DNA from: Hoeflea sp.
GTDB taxonomy: Bacteria > Pseudomonadota > Alphaproteobacteria > Rhizobiales > Rhizobiaceae
Reading direction: 5' to 3'
NCBI GenBank assembly: GCA_019084245.1
Contig: JAHRFE010000013.1
Coordinates: forward strand, 1-64,000
DNA: 64,000 nucleotides
Positions 39,561 through 64,000 of the stretch are shown one piece after another. The notes beneath the pieces are model-generated. The model saw nothing but the letters and a program-made list of their open reading frames with translations. It had not been told where the DNA came from and made no database searches. Numbering within the stretch: the first letter of the stretch is position 1; the number at the start of each line of letters is the position of its first letter. Made by a program: the position numbers and the translations under genes.

Positions 39561-39585
39561 CGAAATTGGCTAACGGAAACACAAC

Positions 39586-40446: not shown

Positions 40447-40449
40447 TTT

Positions 40450-41767: not shown

Positions 41768-42657
41768 GAGGGCGGGCCGGGCATGATGATGGTGAGGGCG
41801 GGGGACGACGCAGGGGGCGTGCCAAGCCGCCGCGCACCTGTCACGACATGCAGGAACCGTCCCGAAAACGGGGATAAACCCGCTCAGCCGTTCCAACAAA
41901 TCCAGTCACTTAACCAAAAATCCCCCGATCTTTTCCCCACCCTCCACCCGCATGCGATCATCGTTGCACTTCCGCTGCCGGATGGTCTCGCGAGCGTTTC
42001 GGGCCAGGCGGAAGGGAATGCCCCGGAGGGCCGCGTCTCGACGCAAGGCGCACTTCCGGGGAGGCGATGGCCAACGCGGTTCCGCTGGCGGGCGGCGCTC
42101 TTTCGGGCGCCGTGCAAAGCCAGCCACCGGGCCGGGTCCCGATCCGTCCGCGACATGCGGGCGAGGGCGGGGGCCAGCGGTCCGGGCCTGTGGCGGACAT
42201 GCCGTGCTCGATGCGAACTCCCCGGGCGATCCCGCCTCAGGGGGCCGGCATCACCCAAGAGCGCGTGCAGGGTCCGTGCCGGAATTCGCGCCCAAAGCAG
42301 CTCCCGCGGATCGAGTCCCGACCCGCGGCCGGGGCAACCCGGGCGGAGAGCCCCGAAGAGGGGCCGGTGGATAAGCCAGCTCCGTGTGCGTGCGAGGCCG
42401 ACGCCTGTCGGGTGGGGACGCCATCCGGCGAGTTCTGGGCCGCGCGCTGTCAGCGCCACTCCCTTGCCCATGCCGGCTGACACCCGGCATGGGCAGAACA
42501 CACACTTCCGAAGGCACTGCCCCGCGCGGCCCTCCGGACTGCCATTCCAGCAAACCCCGGCGGCATTTGTCGCGCGGCAATGCGCCCGGCTGCCTCGCTG
42601 GGACGGTTGACTTTCGGGCGAAGCAAAGCCGAAGCCCCGACTGCCGGCCCCTCGTTT

Positions 42658-47552: not shown

Positions 47553-47628
<76 letters not shown>

Positions 47629-47928: not shown

Positions 47929-48819
47929 TCACGATGTGCCATGGTCGCTCGACCAATCCGGTCCCTTCTTGACGAAGCTGAAACGGGACAATCCCGTGAT
48001 GCCGGAATCAAAGCCATACATGAATTGGGCAAATGCCTTCTGGTACCGTTGAATATTTTCCTCGCCGAACTCCGGTTTCAGCGCGTCCCGGTTTGCCCGA
48101 AGGTTCCAGATCCATTCGCGCAGCGTCCGGCTGTAGTCGCGTGGGCGATTGTGCATTTCCACAAGATGGAACCAGGGATCCGCAGCCTGGACAAGTTCCA
48201 GCTGGCGGGGCAGGTTGCTTTCGGGGAAAAAATCCAAGGGAAGATTGGAGCTTTCGTTTTGAGGCGCCATGTTCATCCATATGATGGACTGAAGCGACAG
48301 CCTGCCGCCATCGACAAGGTTGCGTGAACAAAACTCAAAAAACCCGGAATAACAATCCAGCTTTGCAGCCGTGTCCATCTCCGGCCGGGCGAAATGTTCG
48401 ATAGCGCCAATCGAGACAATCGCGTCAAATGGTTCCTCGTTCTTGAACTCCTGCCAAGGACGATTCTGCACCGTGATTCTCGGGTCCTTGCGACCTTCCT
48501 CGATCCAGGCTGCCTGTTCGTCGGACAGCGTCAGTCCTACAGCCCGGGAAAGGTCTTTTGCCGCCACCGCTCTGGCCATCAGGCCGCCCCAGCCGCATCC
48601 GACATCAAGAAGCCGCTGACCGGGATTGAGACCCGCTGCGGCAATATGCCAGTCGAGTTTTCGGTTCTGGGCCTCACTCAACGTTATCTTCGCGCCCTCC
48701 ACGGCGTCCCATAATCCGGCCGAATAGATCATGCTTTCGCCGAGAAGCCGCGCGTAGAAACGATTTCCCAGATCGTAATGAAACTGTATGGCTTCACGGG
48801 AAGCCCCCTTGTTTGGCAT
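47929..48819 (-). CDS. CFA-like SAM-dependent methyltransferase
   Basis: 296 residues. Begins AIQFHYDLGNRFYARLLGESMIYSAGLWD, the substrate-binding start of cyclopropane-fatty-acid synthase-type enzymes, then RLLDVGCGWGGLMARAVA (motif I), VGLTLSDEQAAWI (CFA signature SxEQ), FDAIVSIGAIEHFARPE (IGMxEHV-like) and YSRTLREWIWNLRANRD (YxRTLxxWxxxL). It lacks the N-terminal domain of full CFA synthase. It probably methylates or cyclopropanates a lipid or a small amphiphile. AAGGA lies upstream of the ATG at 48819. As the first gene of the envelope-lipid locus, a link to it is plausible. Confidence 0.82.
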   Translation of the reverse strand: MPNKGASREAIQFHYDLGNRFYARLLGESMIYSAGLWDAVEGAKITLSEAQNRKLDWHIAAAGLNPGQRLLDVGCGWGGLMARAVAAKDLSRAVGLTLSDEQAAWIEEGRKDPRITVQNRPWQEFKNEEPFDAIVSIGAIEHFARPEMDTAAKLDCYSGFFEFCSRNLVDGGRLSLQSIIWMNMAPQNESSNLPLDFFPESNLPRQLELVQAADPWFHLVEMHNRPRDYSRTLREWIWNLRANRDALKPEFGEENIQRYQKAFAQFMYGFDSGITGLSRFSFVKKGPDWSSDHGTS

Positions 48820-49061
48820 GGTTCCGCTTCCTTCCAAGGCTTGGTGCGCGACGACTTCTGCTTTTATTACCGGCGGTCGCCGTTTCGCGCCAGATGGCCG
48901 AAGGTGTCGGGCAGAACTTGATGGACTGGATGGCAATTTGCGCCCGGGCCCGTCTGCGTTTCCCAAACCCCAGCTTGCATCAATCCCGAAAAACACGGCG
49001 TGAGGGAGGGGGACCCAAGCATCTGGCGACAAGGAAACAGGATCAGTCTACACCATCACGG

Positions 49062-50396: not shown

Positions 50397-50621
50397 GTCG
50401 AACTTCCCGCCCACACGGGCGCACGCAGCCAGAAAACCGCCCGATGGCCGGAAAACGCCGAGCCGGTGAACGCCGCCTTCCATATCTTCACGCCCGTGTG
50501 TTAACAAGTCTCCCGGGGATCGGGGTTCTGCCCGCCAACAAGCATTGCCAGAATTGAATTGATGAATATAAGCGGGAGAACAGACCCGGGAGCGATACCG
50601 GCAACCGACGGAGCGTGTTCC

Positions 50622-51485
50622 ATGGCTTGCGATGCTACCCATGACAACAAGCCGGAAACGGCAGCGGGTCGGCGGCTGGTCAATTGGCTGGTGACGCCGC
50701 TTGCCTCCCTTGTCAGGAACCGCAACCTGTTCTGGCAGTTGCTGGTGCGCGATGTGCAGTCATCCGTGCGCGGCAGCGCCCTGGGGTTGGCGTGGATCAT
50801 CATCACGCCGCTGGTGCTGGTGGCGATCTACACATTCGTGTTCGGCTTCGTGCTGAAATCCGCCTGGTTCTCCGAAACCGAGAGTTCGGTGGTTGTTCCG
50901 TTGATCTATTTCACCGGGTTGATGATCTTCAGCTTCTTCATGGAGATCATCACCCGGGCGCCGGAGTTCATTCATTCCAACCGGACCTATGTCACCAAGA
51001 TCATTTTCCCCATCGATATTCTCGACTGGGTGCTTGTGGGAGCGGCCGCGTTCAAGCTGGCCGCGGCGATGATCCTGCTTGCCGTGTTTCTGGCGCTGGC
51101 CACCTGGGAACTGCCGGTCGCCATGCTGCTGGCGCCGATCGTGATCGCGCCGCTGGCGATCCTGTGTGTCGGCCTCGGCTGGCTGTTTTCCGCGCTCGGC
51201 ACCTATATCCGCGACATCCAGCAGGTTCTCGTGACGCTCGGGCCGGTGATGATGTTCGTGAGCCCGATCTTCTACGACATCAATCAGGTCCCGGAGGGGC
51301 TTCGCCCGGTGTTCTGGTTCAATCCGCTCACATTCATCCTCGAGACGCTGCGCGGATTGCTGTTCTTTGACAGGTCGGTGAACTGGGTGGCCTATGGCGG
51401 TTACTGGCTGGTCGCACTGACGGTGTTCTATTGTGGATATGCTTTCTTCCAGCGGGCCAGGCGCGGGTTTGCCGATGTCGTATGA
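50622..51485 (+). CDS. ABC-2 type polysaccharide export permease (Wzm-like)
   Basis: 287 residues, six transmembrane helices. The family features are FWQLLVRDVQSSVRGSALGLAWIIITPLVLVAIYTFVF (first helix with its Arg-rich approach), IKxIFP-type FPIDILDWVLVGAA and SPIFYDINQVPEGLRPVFWFNPLTFILETLRG. It forms the channel of an ABC transporter that pushes undecaprenyl-linked glycans across the inner membrane. MACDATHD was preferred as start because GGAG lies upstream; ATG at 50562 is the alternative. It overlaps the first ATPase gene by 11 bases. Confidence 0.88.
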   Translation: MACDATHDNKPETAAGRRLVNWLVTPLASLVRNRNLFWQLLVRDVQSSVRGSALGLAWIIITPLVLVAIYTFVFGFVLKSAWFSETESSVVVPLIYFTGLMIFSFFMEIITRAPEFIHSNRTYVTKIIFPIDILDWVLVGAAAFKLAAAMILLAVFLALATWELPVAMLLAPIVIAPLAILCVGLGWLFSALGTYIRDIQQVLVTLGPVMMFVSPIFYDINQVPEGLRPVFWFNPLTFILETLRGLLFFDRSVNWVAYGGYWLVALTVFYCGYAFFQRARRGFADVV

Positions 51486-52767
51486 TATTGGGGTCGACGT
51501 CAAAGGCCTCGGCAAGGTGTACAATCTTTTTGATCGCGATACGGCGCAATTGGCTTGTGTCCTGTTCGGAAGGCAGGCTGAAAACCAGGTCTGGGCGCTG
51601 CGCGACGTCGGGTTCTCGGCCCGGCCGGGTGATTTCATCGGAATCATCGGGCGCAACGGCGCGGGAAAATCAACCCTTCTCGAGATCCTCGCGGGAACCC
51701 GTCAGCCCAGTGTGGGATCGGTCTCGATCAGGGGCCGCGTGGCCGCGATGCTTGAACTTGGAGCGGGGTTCAATCCGAATTTCACCGGGACCGAGAACGC
51801 AAGACTGTGCGCGTCGGCCTATGGCTTGTCGAACAGCCAAATCCGGGAACGCCTGCCTGATATCGCCCGTTTTGCCGGCATTGAGGAGTTCATGGACCGG
51901 CCGACGCGGGAATTTTCGAGCGGCATGTTCGCGCGGCTGGCGTTTTCGGTCTGCGCCCATGTCGACGCCGACATTCTGATCGTGGATGAGATCCTCGGCG
52001 TCGGCGACGTCCAGTTTCAACAGCGCTCCATGCGCTTCCTGCGCGCATTCTCGCGCGATCGCATCGTTTTTCTCGCCTCCCACAACGAGACCGCGATTCC
52101 CTCTCTTTGCAACCGGGCAATTCTTCTTGCCAAGGGGCGCATAGCCCTGACCGGGCGGCCCAAGGATGTGGCCTATGCCTATCACAAATCGGTCTCGCAC
52201 GAACTGGGTCAGGCGGATGGATTTGAAGCGGAGGGGGATCTTTCCGGCCCTGACGCCGGCGCCGTGCATGAACAGGATGAAACACCGGCGCCGAGCTTGG
52301 CGGATTTCGATGCTCTTGGAACACCAGGCAGGCCGGGCAGCTTGAAGGCTGCTGCGTTGAGCTGCGATGGCGCCGCGATTTCGACCGTGTCGGGCGGCGA
52401 GCTCGTTTGCCTGAGCATTTCATTCGAGACGCAACCCCAGCACGACGACGCGGTGCTGGCGTTCGTTGTTCGCGACCCCCTGGGACAGGCCGTGGTTTAC
52501 CGTGACATGCCGGCTGCTGCGATGGCAATCGGCCCAGGAGGAGCGCCGCTCCTCGAAGCGCGGTTCGAGTTTGTCATGCCCTATCTTGCCTCCGGCGCCT
52601 ATGTCGTTGACATCGCGCTGATCGCCCGGGGCGGATCTGAAGCCGGATTGATCGACAGACGGGATCTGGCGGTTGCCTTCACCATGATATCCGGACACAT
52701 ATCCTCCGGCCTTGCCAATCTGGGGCAATTGAGCGCCCGGATCTGCGTTCTGGATCCGGCGCCGTGA
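51475..52767 (+). CDS. Wzt-type ABC ATPase with C-terminal carbohydrate-binding domain, first of two
   Basis: 430 residues. ATPase part (~1-240): Walker A GIIGRNGAGKSTLLE, Q-loop region AMLELGAGFNPNFTG (Wzt hallmark), signature REFSSGMFARLAFS, Walker B ILIVDEILGVGD and switch His in FLASHNET. The C-terminal ~180 residues form an Ig-like Wzt_C domain (GGELVCLSISFETQ...VFVVRDPLG, FEFVMPYLASGAYVVDIALIAR) that recognises the glycan end. Between them lies an acidic linker. Overlaps the permease by 11 bases and the next ATPase by 4. Confidence 0.9.
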   Translation: MSYDIGVDVKGLGKVYNLFDRDTAQLACVLFGRQAENQVWALRDVGFSARPGDFIGIIGRNGAGKSTLLEILAGTRQPSVGSVSIRGRVAAMLELGAGFNPNFTGTENARLCASAYGLSNSQIRERLPDIARFAGIEEFMDRPTREFSSGMFARLAFSVCAHVDADILIVDEILGVGDVQFQQRSMRFLRAFSRDRIVFLASHNETAIPSLCNRAILLAKGRIALTGRPKDVAYAYHKSVSHELGQADGFEAEGDLSGPDAGAVHEQDETPAPSLADFDALGTPGRPGSLKAAALSCDGAAISTVSGGELVCLSISFETQPQHDDAVLAFVVRDPLGQAVVYRDMPAAAMAIGPGGAPLLEARFEFVMPYLASGAYVVDIALIARGGSEAGLIDRRDLAVAFTMISGHISSGLANLGQLSARICVLDPAP

Positions 52768-54116
52768 GTTCGCCGCTTCCGGCAATTTCGGCGGTCGGCG
52801 TGACCAAGCGGTTTTCGCGCGAATCCAATTCGCTTCGCAGGCTCTGGGATGTCATGGCGCTGACCCGGCCCAGATCGGCATTCAACGCGCTCACAAGTGT
52901 CGATATCAGCGTCGGCCGGGGCGAGGCGCTCGGTATTGTTGGACGCAATGGCTCGGGCAAATCGACCCTGCTCCAGATTCTCAGCGGCACGATGCAGCCA
53001 ACGAGCGGCACCATAGCGGTCAACGGCAAGCTCAGTGCGATGCTTGAACTGGGCGCCGGCTTCAACCCGCGCTTCACAGGCCGGGAAAATGCGCGGCTGA
53101 ACGCCGCAGCGTTTGGAGTTCCGGCTTCCGCAATTGACGAACGGCTGGAGGCCATCGAGGCCTTTGCCGATATCGGCGCCTATTTCGAAAGGCCCCTGAA
53201 GGAATATTCCAGTGGAATGCAGGCGCGGCTGGCGTTCGCCATCTCGATTCATGTCGATGCGGAAATCCTCGTTGTCGATGAAATCCTGGGCGTGGGGGAT
53301 GCCGCGTTTCAGAAGAAATGCCATGCCTTCATGCAGCGGTTCCGCGACGCCGGCGGCACCCTCCTGTTCGTGTCACATGATCCAGGAATGGTTTCGGCCA
53401 TATGCGACCGGGCGATCTGGCTTGAAGCCGGCCACAAGAAGGCTGACGGCAAGTGCCTGGAAGTGATCAAGGCCTATGCCGACCACATGAATGGCCTCGA
53501 CCTTCCCGCAGGCGCGGCCACGACCCAACCCAGCAACATATCGGCAGGCGTGGATTGCGAATGGGGGTCGAAAGGGGACATGGACGTATCGGTGTTCGAT
53601 CGGGCCTCGCCGCGCCATGGCCATGGCGGATGCCGAATCATCGACTGTTTTCTCACCGACGACAATGACCGCAGGGTGGAGCGGATCCATGGCGGAATGC
53701 AGATCACGCTCCATGTCCAGGCCGTGGCCCAGCGCCGGCTTCATTCGCCTATCGTCGGTTTCATGCTGCGCAATGACACAGGGCAGAATCTCTTTGGCGA
53801 CAACACCTTTCTCGCATTCCGGCATGAGCCGCCGATCATCGAGGAAGCAAGCCGGTTCGAGGGCCGCCTGAAGTTCTGCATGCCCTATCTGCCGGATGGC
53901 TGCTACGCTTTCGCGCCTTCCATCATCGAGGGCACTCAAAGCAATCATGTCCAACTTGACTGGCGGGAGGAAGCCATTTTTCTTCTTGTCCGAAATTCTC
54001 CGGTCAAGGCGGGTCATGTGGGATTGACGATGCGGTCAATCACTGTCAGCCCACAGGACGCGAGTGGACAACGCGCAATGACGCCCGCGATGTACATTGA
54101 CAGCGGCGTCAATTGA
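52764..54116 (+). CDS. Wzt-type ABC ATPase with C-terminal domain, second of two
   Basis: 450 residues. ATPase part: GIVGRNGSGKSTLLQ, AMLELGAGFNPRFTG, KEYSSGMQARLAFA, ILVVDEILGVGD and FVSHDPG. A distinct C-terminal domain (~290-450) carries GCRIIDCFLTDDNDRR, GGMQITLHVQAVAQRR and MPYLPDGCYAFAPSI, clearly diverged from the first ATPase's. The start is a GTG overlapping the previous TGA (GTGA). Two full Wzt proteins with one permease suggest a heterodimeric ATPase in which each subunit reads a different glycan end or residue. Tightly coupled to inositol-phosphate synthase downstream. Confidence 0.9.
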   Translation: MSSPLPAISAVGVTKRFSRESNSLRRLWDVMALTRPRSAFNALTSVDISVGRGEALGIVGRNGSGKSTLLQILSGTMQPTSGTIAVNGKLSAMLELGAGFNPRFTGRENARLNAAAFGVPASAIDERLEAIEAFADIGAYFERPLKEYSSGMQARLAFAISIHVDAEILVVDEILGVGDAAFQKKCHAFMQRFRDAGGTLLFVSHDPGMVSAICDRAIWLEAGHKKADGKCLEVIKAYADHMNGLDLPAGAATTQPSNISAGVDCEWGSKGDMDVSVFDRASPRHGHGGCRIIDCFLTDDNDRRVERIHGGMQITLHVQAVAQRRLHSPIVGFMLRNDTGQNLFGDNTFLAFRHEPPIIEEASRFEGRLKFCMPYLPDGCYAFAPSIIEGTQSNHVQLDWREEAIFLLVRNSPVKAGHVGLTMRSITVSPQDASGQRAMTPAMYIDSGVN

Positions 54117-54142: not shown

Positions 54143-55255
54143 ATGCAAGATAGACAAATCAAGACAGCGATCTTCGGGATCGGCAATTGCGCGAGTTCGC
54201 TGGTGCAGGGCATCGCCTATTGCCGGCAGCACGGCGAGGACGCTGTCGGCATGCTGTTTCCAGACCTAGGCGGTTACGCTCCAGGCGACGTGGAGATAGT
54301 CGCGGCCTTCGACGTGGACCGGCGCAAGGTCGGAAAACCGCTGTCGGAGGCGATTTTCAGCAAGCCGAACAACACACTGGTGTTTCAGCCGCAGACCGGA
54401 TTCGACGCCGTTCCGGTTTCGCCCGGGGCAATCCTTGACGGTGTGTCGGCGTCCATGCGCAATCAGCCGGCGGACGACTCCTTTCTCCCCATCGAGGCTG
54501 GCGAAGCCACCCGCGAGGAAGTTGTCGCGGTGCTGAAATCTTCCGGCGCTGAAGTCGCCATCAATTTCCTGCCGGTCGGTTCGATTGAGGCAACCGAATT
54601 CTATGCGCAGTGCGCCATCGATGCCGGCATGGCTTTCGTCAATGCAATCCCGGTGTTCATCGCCAGCTCGGACAAATGGGCGCTGAAATTCAAGGACGCC
54701 GGCCTGCCGGTTCTCGGGGATGATTTCAAGGCGCAGATGGGTGCCACGATCGTCCATCGGGCCCTTGTGGAGCTGTTTGGATTGCGCGGCGCGGCGCTTG
54801 ACCGGACCTACCAGCTCAATGTCGGCGGCAACACCGATTTCTTGAACATGACCGATCAGAACCGGCTGCTGATGAAGCGAGAATCGAAAACGGAGTCGGT
54901 CCAGAGCGCTGCGCTCAATCGGTTCGCCGATGGCGACGTGCGCATCGGTCCCTCCGATTATGTGAGCTGGCTTGATGACCGGAAGGTGGCCTTTATCCGG
55001 CTTGAGGGAAAATTGTTCGGCGGTGCTCCGGTCAATGTCGAGTTGCGCCTGGATGTCGAGGATTCTCCCAACGCAGCCATCATGGCGCTGGCTGCGATCC
55101 GGTGCGCGCGCATTGCTCTCGACAGGAAGCTGTCCGGAGCGCTACCCGAGGCGAGCGCATTCATATTTAAGCATCCACCGGTTCAGGCCAAGGATCATGA
55201 AGCCCATCGGATGTTGCAGGACTTCGCTGCGCAGCTGCCGGCTTCTGATGACTAA
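54143..55255 (+). CDS. ino1: Inositol-3-phosphate synthase
   Basis: 370 residues. Converts glucose-6-phosphate to 1D-myo-inositol 3-phosphate with NAD. Motifs: TAIFGIGNCASSLVQGIAY (NAD site), VAINFLPVGS, FVNAIPVFIASS, LPVLGDDFKAQMGATIVHR, LNVGGNTDFLNM (core lysine region SKTESVQSA) and KHPPVQ near the end. The bacterial/archaeal-type length. MQDRQIKT was chosen as start, though the frame opens at a TTG overlapping the previous stop. Directly follows two Wzt-type ATPases and precedes an LptB-like ATPase by 8 bases, pointing to inositol used in an envelope lipid or glycan rather than in catabolism. Confidence 0.93.
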   Translation: MQDRQIKTAIFGIGNCASSLVQGIAYCRQHGEDAVGMLFPDLGGYAPGDVEIVAAFDVDRRKVGKPLSEAIFSKPNNTLVFQPQTGFDAVPVSPGAILDGVSASMRNQPADDSFLPIEAGEATREEVVAVLKSSGAEVAINFLPVGSIEATEFYAQCAIDAGMAFVNAIPVFIASSDKWALKFKDAGLPVLGDDFKAQMGATIVHRALVELFGLRGAALDRTYQLNVGGNTDFLNMTDQNRLLMKRESKTESVQSAALNRFADGDVRIGPSDYVSWLDDRKVAFIRLEGKLFGGAPVNVELRLDVEDSPNAAIMALAAIRCARIALDRKLSGALPEASAFIFKHPPVQAKDHEAHRMLQDFAAQLPASDD

Positions 55256-55263
55256 GGCTTTCC

Positions 55264-55989
55264 ATGCCCGGTACACTTGAAGCCTACAGCCTGAGGAAGA
55301 CCTATCTCGGACGCGAAGTGCTGTCGGGCGTCTCCCTGAGCTTGTCGGAAGGCCGGATCCTGGGCCTTCTGGGGCCTTCGGGTTCCGGAAAATCAACGGC
55401 TTTCCGATTGCTGACCGGTGTTGAACTGGCGGAGCCGGGGTCTGTCTTCCTCGATCGCAAGGATATTTCCCAGGTCTCCATCGACGCCCGGGCCCGGCTT
55501 GGTATCGGCTATGTCCCACAGGCGCCGGATCTGTATCTGTCGCTGTCGGCCTCGGACAATTTCAGGATTGCCCTTGAAGCCTGCCGGTACACCCGACCGA
55601 AAGCGCAGGCGGTGCTCGACGATATCTGCCGTCTGCTTGAACTCGACGACATAATGGACATGCAAGCCGGTCACTTGTCCGGCGGCCAGCGAAAACTCAT
55701 TGAAATCGGCTTCGCCCTGTGTGCCCAACCGCGAATGCTGCTGCTTGACGAGCCCTTCGCCAAGCTTGATCCGATCACGGTGACACGCATTGCCGGCCAT
55801 ATCAAAAGGCTTGCAAATTCTGGTGTCGGTGTGCTTGTTACGGATCATCAGGCCAGGACCGTGTTTTCCCTTGCGGAAGAGATCGTCGTCATCAACAACG
55901 GTCTGATGATAGCGAAAGGTCCTTCGTCGGAAGTGATCGGATCTACGGCCGTGCGGGAATCGTTTCTAGGCGAAACCTTCTCTCCCTGA
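55264..55989 (+). CDS. LptB-like ABC ATPase
   Basis: 241 residues. Walker A GLLGPSGSGKSTAFRLLTG, signature LSGGQRKLIEIGFAL, Walker B MLLLDEPFAKLDPITVTRI and switch TDHQARTVFSLAE. The LDEPFAxxDPITV and DHQxRxT elements and the length match LptB, the ATPase that powers LPS extraction. Canonical lptB neighbours (lptA, lptC, rpoN) are absent; instead two LptF/G-like permeases follow 140 bases on. This is therefore probably a paralogue dedicated to another lipid. Confidence 0.85.
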   Translation: MPGTLEAYSLRKTYLGREVLSGVSLSLSEGRILGLLGPSGSGKSTAFRLLTGVELAEPGSVFLDRKDISQVSIDARARLGIGYVPQAPDLYLSLSASDNFRIALEACRYTRPKAQAVLDDICRLLELDDIMDMQAGHLSGGQRKLIEIGFALCAQPRMLLLDEPFAKLDPITVTRIAGHIKRLANSGVGVLVTDHQARTVFSLAEEIVVINNGLMIAKGPSSEVIGSTAVRESFLGETFSP

Positions 55990-56131
55990 TCCAGCCGCTG
56001 AGCCAATTTGACAGGACGCGAAGCCCGGTACATGGGCGCTCCCGAAGCGTTCAATGGAAAAACCTGGCGTTCTGGCGGGAATGCGAATAGCCGGAAGAAG
56101 GCGGCGAGGGGAGTGGCAAACAGCACCATCG

Positions 56132-57307
56132 ATGAAATACATCAGCCAATCCGTATTGCTGGTCTTGGGATTGTTTCTGCTCATCTATCTCGCCCTGGTC
56201 CTCGTGTTCCTGATTGAGAAGCTCGACTTCCTGCTCCACGCCGCCATCAATTACAACATGCATCTTGGCGGTTTCATGTTGCTTTTGGCTGCCTACATGC
56301 CGTTGGTGGCCGACTTCATCCTCCCTGTGGCGGCTCTGGTGTCGGTTTATCTTGTACTGGTTTACAAACGCGAAAACCGTGAATTCCTCATCCTTGCGGC
56401 CGCGGGCATCGGCATGCGGCCGACCGTCGCCATCACGATGATCCTGGGCGGATTCTTTGCGGCCACCTCCCTGTATGTTTCCGGATATCTCAAGCCCTTG
56501 GCGAGTGATCTGTATTTCAGCGAATTCCAACGCGCCATAGACAGCGCAGTCATCTCCGGTTGGGATTCTGGCCAATTCGTTGTTGAAGACGACGCCGTAT
56601 TCCACGTCGGTGGCCTCAAGGATCACGGTGTCCGTGATTTGCAGATTTTCGAATTCGACCGCGGCAGCCTTTCCCAGATCCTGCTGTCAGGCTGTGCAAA
56701 GCTGGTGATTCAGGGCGGTGAGGTGTTTGCGAGCTTATGCAATCTGGAAATTCGCAGATTTGGTGGTCCAGGAGAATCTGCAGAAACCGGTTCTGCCGAT
56801 CAAGCCGAACCACGCGTGCCTTGCCGCATCTGCCCGAACGCCTCGGGTGACCTCAATGTGGATACGCTCAGGGCAGACGATTCCTCCATCAACACCAAGA
56901 TCGGGACGTTGGCCAAGGCTGCAGGCGACACAGGAGAGAAAAGTCGGGTGTTGCATGAAATGCTGGAAACGGACAACGGCCTCTTTGTGTCTCGGTCCGA
57001 TGCACGCAATGCCGCAGGAGCGGTTATGATGGCGTTGAGTTGCCTCCTTGCTGTCGCAATCGCGGTTTTTGGTGCGGCAAAGACGAATGCCGGAACCCGG
57101 TTTGCTGTTCTGCCATCCAGCATCGCCATCGCCACCATGCTCAATGTTGTCGCATCGGCTGGTTTGCTGGTGCCCGAAGCCGCGCTCTCGCCGGTTGGCT
57201 TCACGGTGTTTTTCTCATTGGCCAGCATTGCCGCACTGCTGTCCATTCCATTGTCGATCGGCCTCGCCGGCCGGAGTCTGCTCGCTCCGGCACTGGCGCG
57301 CACATGA
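56132..57307 (+). CDS. LptF/LptG-like permease, first of two
   Basis: 391 residues from the ATG at 56132 (upstream in-frame Mets at 56054 and 56081 are possible). Typical YjgP/YjgQ layout: helices at ~5-28, 50-75 and 100-120, a periplasmic jelly-roll-like domain (~145-270: DSGQFVVEDDAVFHVGGL, LQIFEFDRGSLSQIL), then three C-terminal helices. The coupling region YKRENREFLILAAAGIGM corresponds to the ExxxLxAxGxS coupling helix contacting LptB. The jelly-roll is shorter than in LptF, with extra Cys. Stop overlaps the next gene (ATGA). Confidence 0.8.
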   Translation: MKYISQSVLLVLGLFLLIYLALVLVFLIEKLDFLLHAAINYNMHLGGFMLLLAAYMPLVADFILPVAALVSVYLVLVYKRENREFLILAAAGIGMRPTVAITMILGGFFAATSLYVSGYLKPLASDLYFSEFQRAIDSAVISGWDSGQFVVEDDAVFHVGGLKDHGVRDLQIFEFDRGSLSQILLSGCAKLVIQGGEVFASLCNLEIRRFGGPGESAETGSADQAEPRVPCRICPNASGDLNVDTLRADDSSINTKIGTLAKAAGDTGEKSRVLHEMLETDNGLFVSRSDARNAAGAVMMALSCLLAVAIAVFGAAKTNAGTRFAVLPSSIAIATMLNVVASAGLLVPEAALSPVGFTVFFSLASIAALLSIPLSIGLAGRSLLAPALART

Positions 57308-58479
57308 CCGCTCCAGCACCGAACAGCACCCGTGAGGGAAACAGCATCCGACAGCCATTCGGTGTCTACACCCGCTTTATGGTGCGCCACTATCTCTGGT
57401 TCATCCTGGTAACCCTGATGGCGATTTCCTCAGCCGTGACGGCAATCAATGTTTCAGGCGAAATCACCCGTGTTTGGGCTGAAAAATCGGCAGCGGGGAC
57501 CCTCTCCGCCATTGCAATGACGGTCTACTATGTTTTGCTGCGGCTACTTGACAACACCGCCCAAGCCCTGCCGATATCCGTGGTTGTTGCCGTGGTGTGG
57601 GCCGAGACCAGCCACGCCGCCAGCGGACGTCTGGTGATGGTTCGCACGGTAGGCATGGCGTATTCGTTAAGGTCCCGCGGCTTGATGGTGACTGCGTTGC
57701 TGATCATCGCCCCGCTTCAATTCACCTTGGACAATTACATCCGGCCCAACGCCATGCTGGAGCTCAGGCACAACATCCTCGGTGAATACGGATGGCTCCA
57801 CCAGTCCCAGCAGAGACCAAGAATGCAGTGGTTTTCACGTGATGGCCATGTTGTTCAAGCCATGTTCGAAGGCTTGCCCCAGGTTCGTATTTCCGACGTA
57901 ACGGTGTATGAAATCAGCCCGGCGGGCAGCCTTGAGGCCATCAGTCAGGCGGAACGTCTCACGCCGGCTTCCGGAAAGAGTTCGACCTGGGTCCTGGAGC
58001 GGGCCCAAACCTGGCGATTTGACAATGGTGCGGGCGCTACCGCGGTCAGCGAGCAGGAAGCAACCCTGCCAGTCTTGAAATTGAGCCAGATATGGCTGGG
58101 CTACCGCGAAATTCATCCCAAATATGTTCCGTTGCCTGACCTGGTGACGTTGTCGCGGGACGAGGCGCTTCCTGACAATCATCCGCCATATATCCAATGG
58201 CTGGCGCTTCGCCTGGTTCAGCCTATCAATACCGCGTTGATTTTGTTTTGTGTGGCAGCTGTCTTTGCGCTGGTTCTCGATCGGCGTGGTCTGATCGTGG
58301 CCGCCTTGTCTGGCCTCGTCACAGGGTATCTGCTTTATCTGCTTGGCCGGATATCCGCAGTGCTGGTGGAAAGCGTCAGGATCAATCCCTTTCTGTCCGG
58401 AGCGATCTTTCCGTTATTGCTTGCGGCCTTGCTGATCTTGTTGTCGTGGGTCCTGACCAGCAAAGACCGGGCTGTTTAA
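57304..58479 (+). CDS. LptF/LptG-like permease, second of two
   Basis: 391 residues. N-terminal helix FMVRHYLWFILVTLMAISSAVTAIN, a second set around LPISVVVAVVWAETSHAASGRLVMVRTVGMAYSLRSRG (coupling helix, ~95-130), helix LMVTALLIIAPLQFTLDNYIRP, a periplasmic domain (~145-285: RMQWFSRDGHVVQAMFEG, LEAISQAERLTPASG, WVLERAQTWRF) and three C-terminal helices, ending RINPFLSGAIFPLLLAALLILLSW. The WVLExAxTW segment is characteristic of LptG. ATGA overlap with the first permease: the two form a heterodimer with the LptB-like ATPase. Confidence 0.82.
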   Translation: MTAPAPNSTREGNSIRQPFGVYTRFMVRHYLWFILVTLMAISSAVTAINVSGEITRVWAEKSAAGTLSAIAMTVYYVLLRLLDNTAQALPISVVVAVVWAETSHAASGRLVMVRTVGMAYSLRSRGLMVTALLIIAPLQFTLDNYIRPNAMLELRHNILGEYGWLHQSQQRPRMQWFSRDGHVVQAMFEGLPQVRISDVTVYEISPAGSLEAISQAERLTPASGKSSTWVLERAQTWRFDNGAGATAVSEQEATLPVLKLSQIWLGYREIHPKYVPLPDLVTLSRDEALPDNHPPYIQWLALRLVQPINTALILFCVAAVFALVLDRRGLIVAALSGLVTGYLLYLLGRISAVLVESVRINPFLSGAIFPLLLAALLILLSWVLTSKDRAV

Positions 58480-58652
58480 CGGGATCAAGGAGACATTTTT
58501 CTTGACTGCTTGATCTCGAACAACCTGCCGGTCAGAGAAGGCATGTAACGTATTATTTGCATATATAAGTGGCAACGCGTATTGAACGGAAAGCCGCCAG
58601 CATCGCGGGGTGCGAGCCGGCGATTAGAACAATGCAAGCAATTGGATGAAAC

Positions 58653-58937
58653 ATGTCAGACGCTGATGGGGACCTGGTGGAGATCGAAAGCCAGCTGCTG
58701 GATATCGTCGCTCAGGAGGGAATGATTGATCGCGGCAGACTGAACAAGGATGCCGTGCTGCTTGACCTCGACATCCAGTCCGCCGACTATGTGATGATTT
58801 TGATGGCCATTGAGGAAAAATGGGGCGTCTATCTACCCGTTGACGAAGACCTGACCGAAGCAAAGACCGTCGGGGATCTGGTAGAGTTGGTGAAAGGCAA
58901 AATCGTAGAGCATAAAGCGAAGAAAGCCACAGCTTGA
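58653..58937 (+). CDS. Dedicated acyl carrier protein
   Basis: 94 residues, acidic. The phosphopantetheine site lies in LLDLDIQSADYVMILMAIEE (Ser43); the usual D-S-L is replaced by Q-S-A. The following VYLPVDEDLTEAKTVGDLVELVKG is the ACP helix 3-4 region. It is not AcpP-like (no GADSLDTVE) nor AcpXL. It begins a second transcription unit after a 173-base gap with an AT-rich promoter-like stretch (TTTGCATATATAAGTGG, 58556-58572). Its stop overlaps the ketosynthase start (TTGA). It should carry the intermediates of the ketosynthase and dehydratase that follow. Confidence 0.88.
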   Translation: MSDADGDLVEIESQLLDIVAQEGMIDRGRLNKDAVLLDLDIQSADYVMILMAIEEKWGVYLPVDEDLTEAKTVGDLVELVKGKIVEHKAKKATA

Positions 58938-60148
58938 AGCGGGTGGTCATTACAGGCACAGGTGCGATATCGGCTTGCGGCATCGGGGCTGAAGCATTGT
59001 GGACCGCTGCGCGAGATGGCAGGTCCGGAGTTCGCCAGACCTTGTTTCCAACACTCAAACGGCAAGTTATTCTGGAGGCCGCGCCGATTTCGGGTGCGGA
59101 TTACCAAATTGCCCTGAGCACGACAAACCCCAGGTTCCAGGACCGGGTGTCCGCCATTGCCCAAATCGCGGCTGGCGAAGCGATCGATCAGGCTGGGCTT
59201 GGCGTTGCCGATTTTGGGGAACGGTGTGCGGTCTCCATTGGCGCCGGTTTTGGCGGCGCCCAGACCATGGACGAAAACTACCATCGTCTTTTAGCCGAGG
59301 GGGGAAGCCGGAAAATCGATCCGATGTGTGTCCCCAAGATCATGACCAATGCGCCAGCTTCATGGATTGCGATGAAGTGGGGCATCAAGGGGCCCAGCTA
59401 TTGCATTTCGACAGCCTGCTCTTCCGCATCCCAATCGATTGGCTTGGGCGCGATGCTGGTGGCATCCGGAACAGTTGACCGATGCATTGCCGGAGGAGCC
59501 GAGGCGCTGCTGGTTCCGGGCGTCTTTGCCTCATGGGAGGCTATGCATGTCATGACAAACGACAAATGCCGGCCTTTTTCCCGAAACAGGACCGGAATGG
59601 TGCTTGGCGACGGCGCCGCGATGTTTGTGCTCGAATCCCTGGAGTCCGCGCTCGCGCGGGGTTCGAAGATCCTGGCCGAATTCGCCGGTTACGGGACCAC
59701 CAATGACGCAGGCGATCTGTTGCGTCCCGACCGGGACGGCGCCGCGCGCAGCATGCGCATGGCGCTTGACCACGGGCGCCTTGAGCCGACCCAGATCGGA
59801 TACGTCAATGCCCACGGCACCGGCACGATCGCCAACGACCTCAATGAAACACTGGCGCTGCGCGATGTGTTCGGCGATCGCTTCGCTGAAATGCTGATTT
59901 CGTCCACCAAGCCGATCCACGGGCACGCGCTTGGCGCCGGTGGAGCGCTCGAATTGCTGATCACGCTCAAAGCCCTTGAGGAGCAGATCGCGCCGCCGAC
60001 CATAAACTTCATCGATGTGGATCCGAAGCTCGGCTTTGAACCGGTCCCCAATGTCGCCAGGCCGTTTGACGCCGATGTGGTCCTGTCGAATTCCTTTGCC
60101 TTTGGCGGCGTCAACGCCTCGCTGGCGCTCAAGCGCTATGAAGCCTGA
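58934..60148 (+). CDS. Beta-ketoacyl-ACP synthase, FabF-like
   Basis: 404 residues with a complete KAS catalytic triad: Cys162 in ISTACSSAS, His294 in VNAHGTGT and His331 in STKPIHGHALGAGG, plus GGVNASLAL at the end. It elongates an acyl-ACP by two carbons with loss of CO2. Sequence is only FabF-like (SWEAMHVMTNDKCRPFSRNRTGMVLGDGAA), so it belongs to a specialised pathway, probably long or modified acyl chains. TTG start overlapping the ACP stop; TGA overlaps the MaoC-like gene by 11 bases. Confidence 0.9.
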   Translation: MKRVVITGTGAISACGIGAEALWTAARDGRSGVRQTLFPTLKRQVILEAAPISGADYQIALSTTNPRFQDRVSAIAQIAAGEAIDQAGLGVADFGERCAVSIGAGFGGAQTMDENYHRLLAEGGSRKIDPMCVPKIMTNAPASWIAMKWGIKGPSYCISTACSSASQSIGLGAMLVASGTVDRCIAGGAEALLVPGVFASWEAMHVMTNDKCRPFSRNRTGMVLGDGAAMFVLESLESALARGSKILAEFAGYGTTNDAGDLLRPDRDGAARSMRMALDHGRLEPTQIGYVNAHGTGTIANDLNETLALRDVFGDRFAEMLISSTKPIHGHALGAGGALELLITLKALEEQIAPPTINFIDVDPKLGFEPVPNVARPFDADVVLSNSFAFGGVNASLALKRYEA

Positions 60149-60941
60149 ACACGGCCCGGCACGGTCTCCCATCACCGGAGAAGCCGTTTGCCCGACTGAG
60201 GCAATGAGGGAATTGTCCTGCCTGGCCTCTGGTCTTGTCGCGAGCGGGGGCGCATCAGATGGTGATTATGCCACCTGGCCCCTGTTGGCGGTTCCCGAAC
60301 TCCTTGCCGGCCAGATCGGGTCCGATTTTCGACCGGAGCCGAAGCAGATACTGGTTCATGAGAGCCTGTTCATCGCGTGCCATCGGCGGCCCGATGAAGC
60401 GGAGCGCTTTTCCTTCTCCGTTGCCTTGTCAGGGGCTGAGATGCTGGGCGCCGATATCGAACTGGTTGACGGGCGTGACGGGAAACTGGCGAGGCTGCAG
60501 GCGCAGCTGCGCTGGATCGATCTTGCGGCCCTGAGCCGGATCAAGCCGATTTCCCTGACCCGCGCCGCCCGTGGCGCCGATCTGGCACATACCCGCACCG
60601 GGATCGTCACGCAGAGCGCAATCGACGTCTTCGTGCGGCTCTGTGGCGATCCAAACCCGCTCCATACCGACCGCGATTATGCGCTCACTGCCGGGCTGAA
60701 GGGGACGGTCATTCCCGGCGCCATGCTGGCGGCGCTGGTGGCGCCGGCGCTTCGGGTTGCGCATCCGGGTTTTGATATCGCCACCCTGTCGATGCGGTTT
60801 CTCGCGCCGATGGTCAGCGCTCAGGGTGTCAAGATCTCTGTCTGCGAAATCGGCGGGGATGACGGCAGGCGCTTGCGCGTTTTCCTGTCGGACGGGGACG
60901 ATGGCGTCGCGGCGATTGGCGATGTCAGCGCGGTGGCCTGA
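60138..60941 (+). CDS. MaoC-like 3-hydroxyacyl dehydratase
   Basis: 267 residues. The C-terminal half is a hot-dog domain with the hydratase motif: SAIDVFVRLCGDPNPLHTDRDYALTAGLKGTVIPGAMLAALVA (Asp and His of D-x5-H). The N-terminal half (RELSCLASGLVASGG...SVALSGAEMLGADIELVDGRDG) may be a second, degenerate hot-dog, giving a double hot-dog enzyme. It would remove water from a 3-hydroxyacyl-ACP made after the ketosynthase; the matching ketoreductase and enoyl reductase are not in this window. Its 3' end overlaps the convergent GT gene by 17 bases. Confidence 0.75.
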   Translation: MKPEHGPARSPITGEAVCPTEAMRELSCLASGLVASGGASDGDYATWPLLAVPELLAGQIGSDFRPEPKQILVHESLFIACHRRPDEAERFSFSVALSGAEMLGADIELVDGRDGKLARLQAQLRWIDLAALSRIKPISLTRAARGADLAHTRTGIVTQSAIDVFVRLCGDPNPLHTDRDYALTAGLKGTVIPGAMLAALVAPALRVAHPGFDIATLSMRFLAPMVSAQGVKISVCEIGGDDGRRLRVFLSDGDDGVAAIGDVSAVA

Positions 60942-61809
60942 CCTTCGACCAGACGTCCCCGAAGGCCTTGATGGCGATTTCGTCGTTTTCTCCCGACCTG
61001 TTCATCCCGTCTGTCAGCGCGTGACGGAGGGAAGCAAGGGTTTCCAATGGAAACCGGTCCGATGGCGTGACTTTCCGCGCAATTCCCAGACGCGCCAGAT
61101 GGCCGGATATCCACACATCGTCCACCCATCTGACCGATGCCGGATAGCCTGAAAAGTCATGCATCGCCTCGTCGCATAGCCAGGCCGGCACCATGTATCC
61201 CCAGGTTCCGAAAAGGATGTCCGCCGGCTCTGCCCGGTCGATGCCGCTGGAAAGGATATGCCAGAGGTCGACAAATCTGGTCCCGGGCTCGAGCATGACG
61301 CCGCGCAGACCGAAGGCGGTCTGGGGTTCCTTCCGATGGGCGGAAAGCAGCGTGGAGACCAGATTTTCCGGATAGACCACGTCATCATCGACGGCGATGA
61401 CGAGGGCGTCCTTTTCCAGGCGCAGGGAATGCAGCAGTTTCGTCGCCGGCCCGAGATCTTCGCATCTCATCACCTCGACACCTTCGGGGATGTGGACATC
61501 TCCGGCGTCGGGATAGTCCCGGTCCTGCCTGAGCGAGCGCGACGGCAGCCACAGGATGATCCGGTCGGCGGGCATGTCCTGGTCCAGCAGACTGCGCAGC
61601 ACCGGAGCCAGCGACCGGGCGCGGGCAGGGATCGTGGTCAGCGAGATGACCACTCTTTCAGGCCGCGCGGCGCGCTGTCTTGTTCTGATCGGCAGTGGCA
61701 GATGCAAGCGCAGCCACCGGGCCAGCACCCGCAGGGCGCCGCCCAGGCCGGTGTTGGAAAAACGCGCCATGGTGCGACGGAAATCTCGACGCAGCGTCTC
61801 CCAACTCAT
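60925..61809 (-). CDS. Glycosyltransferase-like protein with GT-A features
   Basis: 294 residues. RVVISLTTIPARARSLAPVLRSLLDQDMPADRIILWLPSRSL is a GT-A-type nucleotide-binding start, followed by LVIAVDDDVVYPENLVSTLLSAH with a DDD metal-binding site, FGTWGYMVPAWLCDE and VRWVDDVWISGHLARLG (second acidic site). A short basic N-terminal stretch could bind membrane. Sugar and acceptor unknown. ATGA overlap with the upstream GT32-like gene at 61806-61809. Confidence 0.78.
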   Translation of the reverse strand: MSWETLRRDFRRTMARFSNTGLGGALRVLARWLRLHLPLPIRTRQRAARPERVVISLTTIPARARSLAPVLRSLLDQDMPADRIILWLPSRSLRQDRDYPDAGDVHIPEGVEVMRCEDLGPATKLLHSLRLEKDALVIAVDDDVVYPENLVSTLLSAHRKEPQTAFGLRGVMLEPGTRFVDLWHILSSGIDRAEPADILFGTWGYMVPAWLCDEAMHDFSGYPASVRWVDDVWISGHLARLGIARKVTPSDRFPLETLASLRHALTDGMNRSGENDEIAIKAFGDVWSKVRPPR

Positions 61810-62606
61810 GGCATCGATCCAGGCAGCAATCTCCTGCCGCGGGCCAGAAAGAGGTCCGCCTCCTGCCACAGTTGCGCGGGAAACGGGTTGATGGTCCGGT
61901 TTCGCTCGATCCATTTGCGCGACAGCGAGACGCCTCCGGCCATGTCTTTCCAGGTGCCATGGTGGTGGTGGCGCGCAACCATGTTCCGGTTGAGCGGCCA
62001 GAGATCGGGATAATGCAGGGGCGCCATGAGCAGGATCTGCTCCGCGACACTCAGGCCGGGCCAGCCGCCCTGGACAAAAAGCCGCGTCAGCATGCGCGGG
62101 CCGGTGATATCCTCGACATCCGACCGGTCGCAGGTCGATGCCTCCGAGAAGAGCCTGAAACAGCGCTCGAGCGCCGCTTTGAAGAAAGCGTGGCCCGGGC
62201 GCGCCGCCAGGATGCAGTTGGCGATCTGAAATGGCATCGGGTAGCCAAGCTCGCGGGCGCGCGCCGGGTCCAGTTTCGCCTCGATGCTGAGCAGGCCGGA
62301 GAGGTCGAAGAGCGCTTTCGGCAAGGGACGCAGGCACTCCATGTCGATGTCGGCATACATGCCGCCGTCACGAAAGATCACCGCATACCGGAAAACATCA
62401 GCGCGCATGACCGGAAACGGCATGGCGTCATAGGCGTCAAGATGTTCAGGCGCCACGTCCGCAACAACCGTGCGGCTGGCCGCGTTGTCAAACAGCCGAT
62501 ACTGCAAATCCGGGTTGTGCGTCAGCCAGCCGCGCCGAAATGCATCGGCCCGCGGTGGCAAGGCGTCTGATTTCCAGGTCTGCGACAGCAGTCGGGGTGT
62601 CGTCAT
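61806..62606 (-). CDS. GT32-like (DXD) glycosyltransferase
   Basis: 266 residues. LSQTWKSDALPPRADAFRRGWLTHNPDLQYRLFDN, then FPVMRADVFRYAVIFRDGGMYADIDMECLRPL, the Gly_transf_sug DXD signature, and NCILAARPGHAFFKAALERC. These enzymes attach hexoses to lipids or glycans. MTTPRLLS was taken as start (GAAGG upstream). It is transcribed with the following GT and divergent from the PgpA-like gene, with 200 bases between. Confidence 0.85.
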   Translation of the reverse strand: MTTPRLLSQTWKSDALPPRADAFRRGWLTHNPDLQYRLFDNAASRTVVADVAPEHLDAYDAMPFPVMRADVFRYAVIFRDGGMYADIDMECLRPLPKALFDLSGLLSIEAKLDPARARELGYPMPFQIANCILAARPGHAFFKAALERCFRLFSEASTCDRSDVEDITGPRMLTRLFVQGGWPGLSVAEQILLMAPLHYPDLWPLNRNMVARHHHHGTWKDMAGGVSLSRKWIERNRTINPFPAQLWQEADLFLARGRRLLPGSMP

Positions 62607-62806
62607 ATGTGCCTTCACGCTGGTTCCAGGACCGGCATTCATCCGAATATCCGCTGAGACGGAGGTGTTGTCCTATCCCACGCCGTGGCAGCTTCAACAT
62701 CCGCGCCGGATCAAAGCGGAGATCCATGCCTGTTGTTGCATAGATACATTGCTTTTGCCGGATGTCCCATGCATTAAGACGCTGACGCAGTCTGTGGGGT
62801 GGGACA

Positions 62807-63325
62807 ATGAAGCCGGGTCAAGGTCGGCAGCCGAAGCTCAAGGGCCGGAAGCCGGAACTGGGCGAGATGGTGAGAAAGCCGCACCAGATCATCGCGCTGG
62901 TCTTTGGCTGCGGGCTCTCGCCGATTGCGCCGGGCGCGGTGGGTAGCCTCGCGGGATTCGGGCTGTTCTTCGCCCTTCAGCCGCTCGGTCTCGAACTGCG
63001 CATCCCCGCCTATGTCGGGCTCGTCGCACTCGCCTCATGGGCCGCACTGCGCACCGGCCAGGATCTTGAAGCGCATGATCACAACTCCATCGTTATCGAT
63101 GAGACCATCGGCATGAGCCTGACCCTCGAGGTTGCGCGCATGACAGTGCCGGCGCTGGTGGCCGCCTATCTCCTGTTCCGGCTTTTCGATGTCTGGAAAC
63201 CATGGCCGGTCTATCTTGCCGACCGGGCCCGCGGCGGCGGCTTCATGGTCATTCTGGATGACATTCTGGCGGCGTGCTGGGCAGGTGCGGTCTTGCTCGC
63301 CGCGAACCTGCTGGGCATATTTTAG
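62807..63325 (+). CDS. PgpA-family phosphatase (phosphatidylglycerophosphatase A-like)
   Basis: 172 residues (an ATG at 62867 is the alternative start). The family pattern is present: GCGLSPIAPGAVGSLAGF near the first helix, the acidic motif HDHNSIVIDETIGMSLTL (IVIDExxG, metal site), FRLFDVWKPWPV and GGFMVILDDILAACWAG. It has four transmembrane helices. PgpA removes phosphate from phosphatidylglycerophosphate; relatives dephosphorylate phosphatidylinositol phosphate. With inositol-3-phosphate synthase nearby, the second role is a reasonable alternative (inference). Starts a transcript continued by the deacetylase, 3 bases later. Confidence 0.82.
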   Translation: MKPGQGRQPKLKGRKPELGEMVRKPHQIIALVFGCGLSPIAPGAVGSLAGFGLFFALQPLGLELRIPAYVGLVALASWAALRTGQDLEAHDHNSIVIDETIGMSLTLEVARMTVPALVAAYLLFRLFDVWKPWPVYLADRARGGGFMVILDDILAACWAGAVLLAANLLGIF

Positions 63326-63328
63326 GGG

Positions 63329-64000
63329 ATGACGGAACCGGTGACTTCAAGAGACGGCCAAAGCCGCATTGTCTACATGACGGTGGACGCGGAACCGGAT
63401 TGCCCGCCTTTCCTGTGGACCTGGCGGGGGATCGAGGAAGGCATGCCGCTTCTGTTCGATCTCTTCGACAATGAAGGCATCAAGGCGACATTCTTTACCA
63501 CCGGTGACACTGCGGCAAAGCACCCCGCTTGCGTCGAAACGCTGGTCGCCAAGGGGCATGAACTTGGCTGCCACGGCTATTCGCACAATTCCTTTGCCGA
63601 AATGGACGAGGAAACCGCCCGCGACGAAATCGTCCGAACCAATGAAATCCTGCGGAAATTCGCTCCGGTCACCTCGTTTCGGGCGCCATATCTCTCCTTC
63701 CCGGAAAGGTTTGTGAAAATCCTTGCCGAAGAGGGGTTCTCGCTCGACAGCTCGCGCGCGGCCTACAAGCTCAAGGATCCGCCGGCGGAAGTGGAAGGCG
63801 GGCCGGTCCGGCTGGAGGCCTCGGTGACGTCCAGCGTTCTGCGGATCCCCGAAATTGTCAGAACGCCCTGGTTCCGGCTCCTGCAAAGTCCTGTCACGCT
63901 GTTTGTGCATCCCTGGGAGTTCGTCGACCTGACCGCGACCAGGTTGCGCTATGATTGCCGCTTCCGCACCGGGCAGCCGGCGCTGGACAGTCTGCGCTCG
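63329..64000 (+). CDS. Polysaccharide deacetylase (NodB-like), cut by window end
   Basis: 224 codons are present and the frame is open at the edge. NodB-domain motifs: MTVDAEPDCPPF (metal-binding Asp region), GIKATFFTTGDTA, GHELGCHGYSHNSFAEM (H-x3-H zinc ligands), SFRAPYLSF and FVHPWEF. The family removes acetyl groups from N-acetyl sugars, often during exopolysaccharide or chitooligosaccharide synthesis. ATG at 63329, 3 bases after the PgpA-like stop, with GGGG close upstream. No signal peptide, so it may act on a lipid-linked intermediate in the cytoplasm. Confidence 0.88.
   Translation, partial: MTEPVTSRDGQSRIVYMTVDAEPDCPPFLWTWRGIEEGMPLLFDLFDNEGIKATFFTTGDTAAKHPACVETLVAKGHELGCHGYSHNSFAEMDEETARDEIVRTNEILRKFAPVTSFRAPYLSFPERFVKILAEEGFSLDSSRAAYKLKDPPAEVEGGPVRLEASVTSSVLRIPEIVRTPWFRLLQSPVTLFVHPWEFVDLTATRLRYDCRFRTGQPALDSLRS

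Follow-up and report, generated by a model that had tools for sequence, protein, structure and literature searches.

A second LptB–LptF–LptG set beside inositol-lipid genes in Hoeflea sp.: a candidate system for synthesis and extraction of an inositol (glyco)lipid

The closest described relatives of the system treated here are the LptB2FG exporter of lipopolysaccharide (LPS), a second Lpt set in Caulobacter, the Bacteroides genes BT_1522-1526 and the mycobacterial pathway to phosphatidylinositol (PI) and phosphatidylinositol mannosides (PIM). In Caulobacter, LptC2, LptF2 and LptG2 are encoded beside sphingolipid genes and were proposed, without a test, to move phosphosphingolipids; the passages of that paper dealing with sphingolipid transport describe it as not known (PMC11324152). 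For Bacteroides, the section of PMC9246714 on these genes reports that loss of BT_1525, a member of the PgpA family, leads to accumulation of phosphatidylinositol phosphate (PIP), and assigns the protein as PIP phosphatase. Here we describe a locus of Hoeflea sp. (contig JAHRFE010000013.1, positions 1 to 64,000; this whole stretch of 64,000 nt is called the window) in which additional LptB, LptF and LptG genes, named lptB2, lptF2 and lptG2, lie between an inositol-3-phosphate synthase gene and genes for presumed acyl chain synthesis. The system is real and conserved, though rare, and is best read as combining synthesis of an inositol (glyco)lipid with its dedicated Lpt-type extraction.

Seven genes follow each other on the plus strand, in the order given by an earlier, sequence-only reading of the window. 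The first, ino1 (54143..55255; Pfam Inos-1-P_synth, 1.5e-30), encodes the inositol-3-phosphate synthase. It is followed by lptB2 (55264..55989; ABC_tran, 2.7e-28) for an LptB-like ATPase lacking Arg91, by lptF2 (56132..57307; LptF_LptG, 1.7e-16) for an LptF-like permease with a beta-jellyroll and the coupling Glu kept, and by lptG2 (57304..58479; PF03739, 2e-16) for an LptG-like permease in which the coupling-helix Glu is replaced by Arg. An acyl carrier protein (ACP) gene, acp (58653..58937; PP-binding, 6.9e-6), a FabF-like ketosynthase gene, kas (58934..60148; ketoacyl-synt, 1.4e-37), which starts with TTG, and maoC (60138..60941; MaoC, 1.4e-8) for a MaoC-like dehydratase complete the series. 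The lptF2 and lptG2 genes overlap by four bases. The start of lptF2 is likely at 56132, where the open reading frame (ORF) of a 90% identical relative begins and upstream of which a stop is found; the start of maoC at 60138 is likely by inspection.

The trio is a paralog of a canonical set, as the sequence-only reading had supposed, and not the only lptB, lptF and lptG of the cell. The genome (4.82 Mb, 99.99% complete) contains four LptF/LptG genes, namely a pair on contig C28 beside lptD, scoring 191 and 189 bits, and the window pair with 60 and 59 bits. The usual canonical order is lptC-lptA-lptB-rpoN; on contig C40, lptC, an LptA-type gene and lptB are grouped and adjoin an ORF of 517 aa where rpoN would usually lie. 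The ino1 gene is present in a single copy. A search of 72,556 plasmid records with LptF2 gave zero matches at 1e-5.

LptF2 and LptG2 exceeded the family cut-off of PF03739 (60.6 and 60.4 bits; cut-off 27.9), and the trio missed the curated equivalog cut-offs for LPS exporters: LptB 217.6 of 240 (TIGR04406), LptF 56.1 of 230 and LptG 79.7 of 240. The NCBIfam scores of the seven genes were mostly below curated cut-offs. LptB2 matched LptB structures with E values down to 8.5e-52, is 38% identical to the LptB of the same genome and has Leu at the place of Arg91; it carries the LptB hallmark that had been noticed at the outset (LLLDEPFAKLDP). The predicted folds of both permeases, comprising transmembrane helices and a periplasmic beta-jellyroll, have LptF and LptG chains as best structural matches, and the LptG2 model best matches LptG chains (6mjp_G, 1.5e-12). 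The LptF2 jellyroll was modelled with a pLDDT (predicted local distance difference test score) of 33-67 in blocks of 10. LptG2 alone found nothing up to E = 1 in a phmmer search of PDB sequences, and a profile of 17 rows reached LptG at 3.5e-20.

To assess conservation, LptF2 was used as query against 60 relatives. Two congeneric genomes, G013 (90% identity) and G007 (39%), gave strong matches, and weaker matches in G025 and G055 fall in the same clade. Further weaker matches in G049, G029, G046, G020, G044 and G038 are canonical by profile score, and the remaining ones were assumed to be canonical. In G013 the gene order is identical to that of the window (maoC homolog, 78%), and G007 keeps wzm-wzt-wzt-ino1-lptB-lptF-lptG-acp-kas with 39 to 69% identity. 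G055, from another family, has ino1, lptB, lptF, lptG, acp, kas, maoC, pgpA, a family 32 glycosyltransferase (GT32) gene and a deacetylase gene in a different order. A lack of joint conservation in relatives had been named as an argument against the system; the genes are conserved together in these three genomes and in other genera, and because the block recurs in other genera its grouping is more than chance. Within the genus, ino1 was found in three of 18 genomes, the same three that carry LptF2, and across the own genome and the 60 relatives it occurs in all five genomes with LptF2/LptG2 versus six of the 56 others.

From the opposite direction, the best 80 of 288 ino1 loci encoding an Ino1 relative were analysed; they include Hoeflea metagenome-assembled genomes (MAGs), Rhodopseudomonas palustris JSC-3b, Stappia, Maritimibacter, Shimia, Pseudooceanicola and others. 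Within the flanks examined, LptF/LptG genes lie near ino1 in 18 loci. Three of these (L049, L050, L051) are of the window's type, called type A (n = 4 with the window itself); the other 15 make up a second group, type B. Each type B locus contains a match to CDP-alcohol phosphatidyltransferase (strong in five) along with DUF4833, a CTP transferase and a short-chain dehydrogenase; 14 have an alpha-oxoamine synthase and six pgpA. LptB was not seen in 13 of the 15, and L067 and L068 have an LptB-like ATPase on the opposite strand. DUF4833 had no match in the window's genome, but the same search found none of 14 controls, so that its absence was not concluded. In each of the ten further cluster genomes searched, the extra pair adjoins ino1 and a canonical pair occupies another site. 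Two Sphingomonas genomes and Croceibacterium contain two LptF/LptG copies only; Kordiimonas marina has four, yet none matched near its ino1. Additionally, 385 genomes of the class, chosen independently of ino1, were surveyed with LptG2, at most five candidates per genome being scored, so that copies may be missed; flanking DNA was considered for eight of the 33 matching genomes. Besides the window, this survey gave one strong match (G095, 9.4e-119), located beside ino1 with a type B gene set, which indicates that the family is rare. In one type B locus (L029, genome G025), the genes for the alpha-oxoamine synthase, DUF4833 and Ino1 are preceded by those for a phosphoenolpyruvate mutase with a nucleotidyltransferase, a thiamine pyrophosphate-dependent decarboxylase and a class V aminotransferase, as would suit the attachment of a phosphonate to the lipid; L052 is a further type B cluster named in this connection.

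Two trees were calculated, with 70 and 72 LptF/LptG proteins; two LptG2 fragments of L057, where the frame is broken in a MAG, were omitted from both and seven type B loci from the second. LptF and LptG sequences fall into two halves, each with a single clade of ino1-linked copies that is supported by a bootstrap of 100 and a Shimodaira–Hasegawa-like approximate likelihood ratio of 97 to 100 (100/97 and 100/100 in the second tree). This clade lies apart from the canonical copies and from copies beside serine palmitoyltransferase genes. The latter resemble the Caulobacter sphingolipid kind by their gene content, Caulobacter itself being outside the trees; in the second tree, a serine palmitoyltransferase gene was seen in the examined stretch of four of the seven loci of this type. 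Next to LptF/LptG and serine palmitoyltransferase genes, a protein of about 380 aa that neither Pfam nor NCBIfam matches is repeatedly encoded (L030:9313-10446, L159, L201, L203-L206).

The contact between LptB2 and LptG2 differs from that of the LPS exporter. The part of PMC5082905 concerned with the coupling helices of Escherichia coli describes LptF Glu84 and LptG Glu88 as strictly conserved even among distant homologs, the lptG(E88R) allele as lethal, and exchanges of LptB Arg91 to Ser or Glu as suppressing Glu-to-Ala or Glu-to-Arg changes to varying degrees. In our alignment this column holds Glu in 68 of 72 LptF/LptG rows; the four exceptions are the type A LptG2 proteins, which all have Arg aligned with E. 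coli E88, and LptF2 keeps its coupling Glu. At the place of Arg91 the four type A LptB2 proteins have Leu, Leu, Leu and Glu, and Arg is present in the genome's own LptB and in the G055 LptB. The coupling Glu is retained in 12 of 12 type B LptG2 rows, and in G055 together with the LptB Arg. On the simplest reading of these alignments, type A LptB2 and LptG2 would be a co-evolved, naturally insulated pair; the four clusters being related, the exchange may represent one event. All four type A LptF2 proteins, but none of 14 others, have four periplasmic Cys (columns 201, 221, 256 and 259 of alignment A3), perhaps forming two disulfides. The LPS-contact residues of LptG, as given in the relevant part of PMC6744409, were uninformative for the cargo, Lys34 being, by our reading of the alignments, also absent from the canonical LptG of this genome.

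The genes around the trio point to an inositol head group, which was part of the original suggestion and is now well supported. The best solved relative of Ino1 is the inositol-3-phosphate synthase 1gr0 (7.6e-103), the M. tuberculosis enzyme; the TIGR03450 score of Ino1, 375 bits, is below the cut-off of 638. A CDP-alcohol phosphatidyltransferase had been predicted to lie beyond base 64000 and was found at C24:65213-66127, on the opposite strand (C24 is the window's contig, on which window positions continue directly). Its best solved relatives are CDP-diacylglycerol-inositol 3-phosphatidyltransferases, that is PIP synthases (6h5a, 3.2e-13), its motif DxxDGxxAR...GxxxDxxxD, located at residue 156, is complete, and homologs occur near ino1 in Rhodopseudomonas (50% identity), G025 (45%) and G095 (43%). 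A family 4 glycosyltransferase (GT4) is encoded at C24:64054-65271, also on the opposite strand; its solved relatives at E <= 1e-10 are PimA only (best 1.5e-16), a match from which sugar and acceptor are not readable. The gene for the PgpA-family phosphatase, a candidate PIP phosphatase, is located at 62807..63325 (plus strand; PgpA, 8.6e-35) and has homologs beside ino1 in Rhodopseudomonas, G055, G025 and Stappia. Within the genus, 13 of 18 genomes lack PgpA, which is thus not their general phosphatidylglycerophosphate phosphatase.

The acyl genes accompany the trio less regularly. The ketosynthase contains Cys in STACSSA, His in NAHGTGT and His in GHALGAGG, and ACP has its Ser (QSAD) at the usual place; these residues are presumably the catalytic ones and the attachment site. 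Against TIGR03150 the ketosynthase reached 373 bits, below the cut-off of 494. Homologs of acp and kas are found in the G013, G007 and G055 clusters. The acyl module proposed to go with the trio is thus only partly borne out: three of the four type A clusters and G055 contain acp and kas, but neither gene was found in 55 kb around the Rhodopseudomonas cluster or in any of the 15 type B loci.

The limits 54143..60941 first given for the system contain the genes named but proved too narrow, since the run starts at wzm near 50559. A wzm-like gene for an ABC-2 polysaccharide/glycolipid exporter permease (50559..51485; ABC2_membrane, 7.3e-21) and two genes for wzt-like ATPases with Wzt C-terminal domains (51433..52767; ABC_tran, 9.4e-18, Wzt_C, 5.3e-12; and 52764..54116; Wzt_C, 9.5e-24, ABC_tran, 1.7e-20) lead into ino1 on the same, plus strand. 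The wzt pair is present in all four type A clusters, and wzm has homologs in those of G013, G007 (66%) and Rhodopseudomonas (50%). Downstream of maoC lie, on the minus strand, a putative glycosyltransferase gene (60925..61820, start unsure) with homologs in the Rhodopseudomonas and G055 clusters, whose product has no Pfam match in the window and a weak GT2 match in G055, and a GT32-like gene (61806..62642; Gly_transf_sug, 2.9e-13) with homologs of 54% and 46% identity in the same two clusters. They are followed on the plus strand by pgpA and by a gene for a polysaccharide-deacetylase-like enzyme (63329..64000, extending beyond the window; 57% identity to a Polysacc_deac_1 protein encoded in the cluster of G055). 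Two PlsC-type acyltransferases are encoded on the opposite strand past the window (C24:67381-68085 and 68706-69452). A tRNA-Lys gene (47553-47628) sits immediately before the cluster; a second exact copy of at least 14 bases of it is absent within 97 kb. Over 48-60 kb the G+C content drops to 0.58-0.61 from about 0.64, as for an acquired island, and a separate 3-kb stretch (39001-42000) has a G+C content of 0.49 in a genome near 0.64. Before the cluster, a cyclopropane-fatty-acid-synthase-like methyltransferase (47929-49032, minus strand; CMAS, 1.3e-52) could modify acyl chains; its homolog is absent from all eleven related stretches compared.

Judged from the sequences, we consider it reasonably likely that the locus makes an inositol phospholipid, probably decorated with sugar (PIM-like), and that a private LptB2F2G2 extracts it from the inner membrane. 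The enzymatic steps, substrate, direction and bridge that we infer would be as follows. Ino1 would convert glucose-6-phosphate to inositol phosphate, the CDP-alcohol phosphatidyltransferase would join this to CDP-diacylglycerol to give PIP, and PgpA would strip the extra phosphate to leave PI, to which the PimA-like GT4, the GT32-like enzyme and other transferases could attach sugar; this is the order of steps in the PIM pathway. ACP, ketosynthase and MaoC together with the two PlsC-type acyltransferases may provide special acyl chains. LptB2F2G2 would then pick up the product and hand it on via the LptF2 jellyroll towards the outer membrane, either to the one LptC/LptA/LptD bridge detected in the cell or to some other partner. 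Several observations weigh against this proposal. A second LptC, LptA or LptD was not detected in the genome (one match each), where a divergent one could escape. The genes for the phosphatidyltransferase and GT4 lie beyond the window and in the opposite orientation, which does not imply co-expression with lptB2F2G2. No PgpA was detected in nine of the 15 type B loci or in G007, a 77% complete genome that carries the cluster, and in the window's genome another PgpA is encoded on contig C32. In Rhodopseudomonas, acp and kas were not found in 55 kb around the cluster. Finally, 62 of the 80 ino1 loci, many from Sphingomonas, have no LptF/LptG within the flanks examined (seven of the 62 span less than 12 kb), so that ino1 does not need LptFG.

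Other explanations account for parts of these data. LptB2F2G2 might export a special LPS whose lipid A or core sugars are modified by the inositol and acyl genes and whose O-chain is exported by Wzm/Wzt. This would agree with the fold and family of the proteins, with the Wzm, the two Wzt and several glycosyltransferases alongside, and with the single LptC/LptA/LptD set; we nevertheless regard it as unlikely, because a normal LPS exporter is already present, the scores fall below the LPS-exporter cut-offs, the copies accompany ino1 and further lipid genes in each of three arrangements, and a PIP-synthase-like enzyme has no obvious role in LPS. Very unlikely, in our view, is a use of inositol for a surface polysaccharide instead of a lipid, with the Lpt trio as a chance neighbour on a sugar island. 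The position of the cluster after tRNA-Lys, its lowered G+C content and its many glycosyltransferases would fit such an island, and the Bacteroides capsule is likewise described as holding small amounts of inositol in the pertinent section of PMC9246714. However, ino1 and LptF2/LptG2 are linked across different genera and gene orders, and the CDP-alcohol phosphatidyltransferase match near ino1, seen throughout type B and also in 45 of the 62 LptFG-less loci, points to a lipid use of inositol.

An inositol sphingolipid as cargo may hold for related clusters with an alpha-oxoamine synthase, a gene that adjoins ino1 in the 14 type B loci and in the G055 cluster, where it scores 467 against the serine palmitoyltransferase cut-off of 500; moreover, an unplaced Novosphingobium lipid is said, in the portion of PMC9246714 that mentions it, to have resembled inositol phosphoceramide. 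For the window's genome we rate this cargo as the least probable of the explanations considered. Serine palmitoyltransferase was not found there. Of its alpha-oxoamine synthases, the two that are full-length are recognised by score as 5-aminolevulinate synthases (666 and 672 bits; cut-off 339), which lowered the case for a sphingolipid; a third, weak match lies on contig C36 (2.4e-5). A sphingoid base in this genome is therefore unlikely, and an inositol glycerophospholipid the likelier product. A bolder version of the inositol-phospholipid proposal, which we put forward only tentatively and with considerable doubt, is a second LPS-like glycolipid pathway, in which sugars would be built on a PI anchor, flipped by Wzm and the two Wzt, and passed by the insulated LptB2F2G2 to the shared LptC-LptA-LptD bridge; the ino1-linked LptF/LptG clade would then be an alphaproteobacterial family of inositol-lipid exporters.

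The locus offers a candidate transporter family with candidate cargo genes alongside. If the proposal is true, the inositol lipid should be retained in the inner membrane without lptF2G2. The type A pair is also a natural counterpart of the LptG E88R and LptB R91 changes whose combination, according to the part of PMC5082905 cited above, rescued E. coli in the laboratory, and suggests how two Lpt machines could coexist in one cell with their parts unmixed.

In comparison with known systems, the window trio shares with the LptB2FG LPS exporter the protein families, the B-F-G order, the predicted fold with its jellyroll, the LptB sequence and the LDEPFA motif. It differs in being a second copy beside ino1, in a separate clade and without lptA, lptC and rpoN as neighbours, and in the exchange of the LptG coupling Glu for Arg together with the loss of LptB Arg91. 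Like the Caulobacter LptC2/LptF2/LptG2 set, as presented in the passages of PMC11324152 on these genes, it comprises an additional LptF/LptG pair next to genes for some lipid that is not LPS; unlike that set, the locus has no ceramide genes and has its own LptB, ino1 and a PIP-synthase-like gene, and the pair falls in another clade than the tested copies linked to serine palmitoyltransferase, in a tree that does not include Caulobacter. With BT_1522-1526, as far as the section of PMC9246714 on them goes, it has in common an inositol phosphate synthase, a CDP-alcohol phosphatidyltransferase with the same motif and a PgpA-family phosphatase, to which the locus adds an Lpt-type transporter, acyl genes and glycosyltransferases. 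Ino1, the phosphatidyltransferase and GT4 have enzymes of the mycobacterial PI/PIM pathway as their nearest solved relatives, whereas here the host is Gram-negative, an Lpt-type exporter and a PgpA-family phosphatase are present, and mannose is only a candidate sugar. No description of LptBFG beside inositol-lipid genes was found in the open-licence PMC literature; the sequence-only reading, which knew of no described system, thus stands for this gene set, but for the idea the Caulobacter sphingolipid LptF2/LptG2 discussed in those passages of PMC11324152 are a precedent. As far as the literature searched shows, the Lpt kind of machine is known, and new are its link to inositol-lipid genes, its separate clade and the changed LptB–LptG contact.

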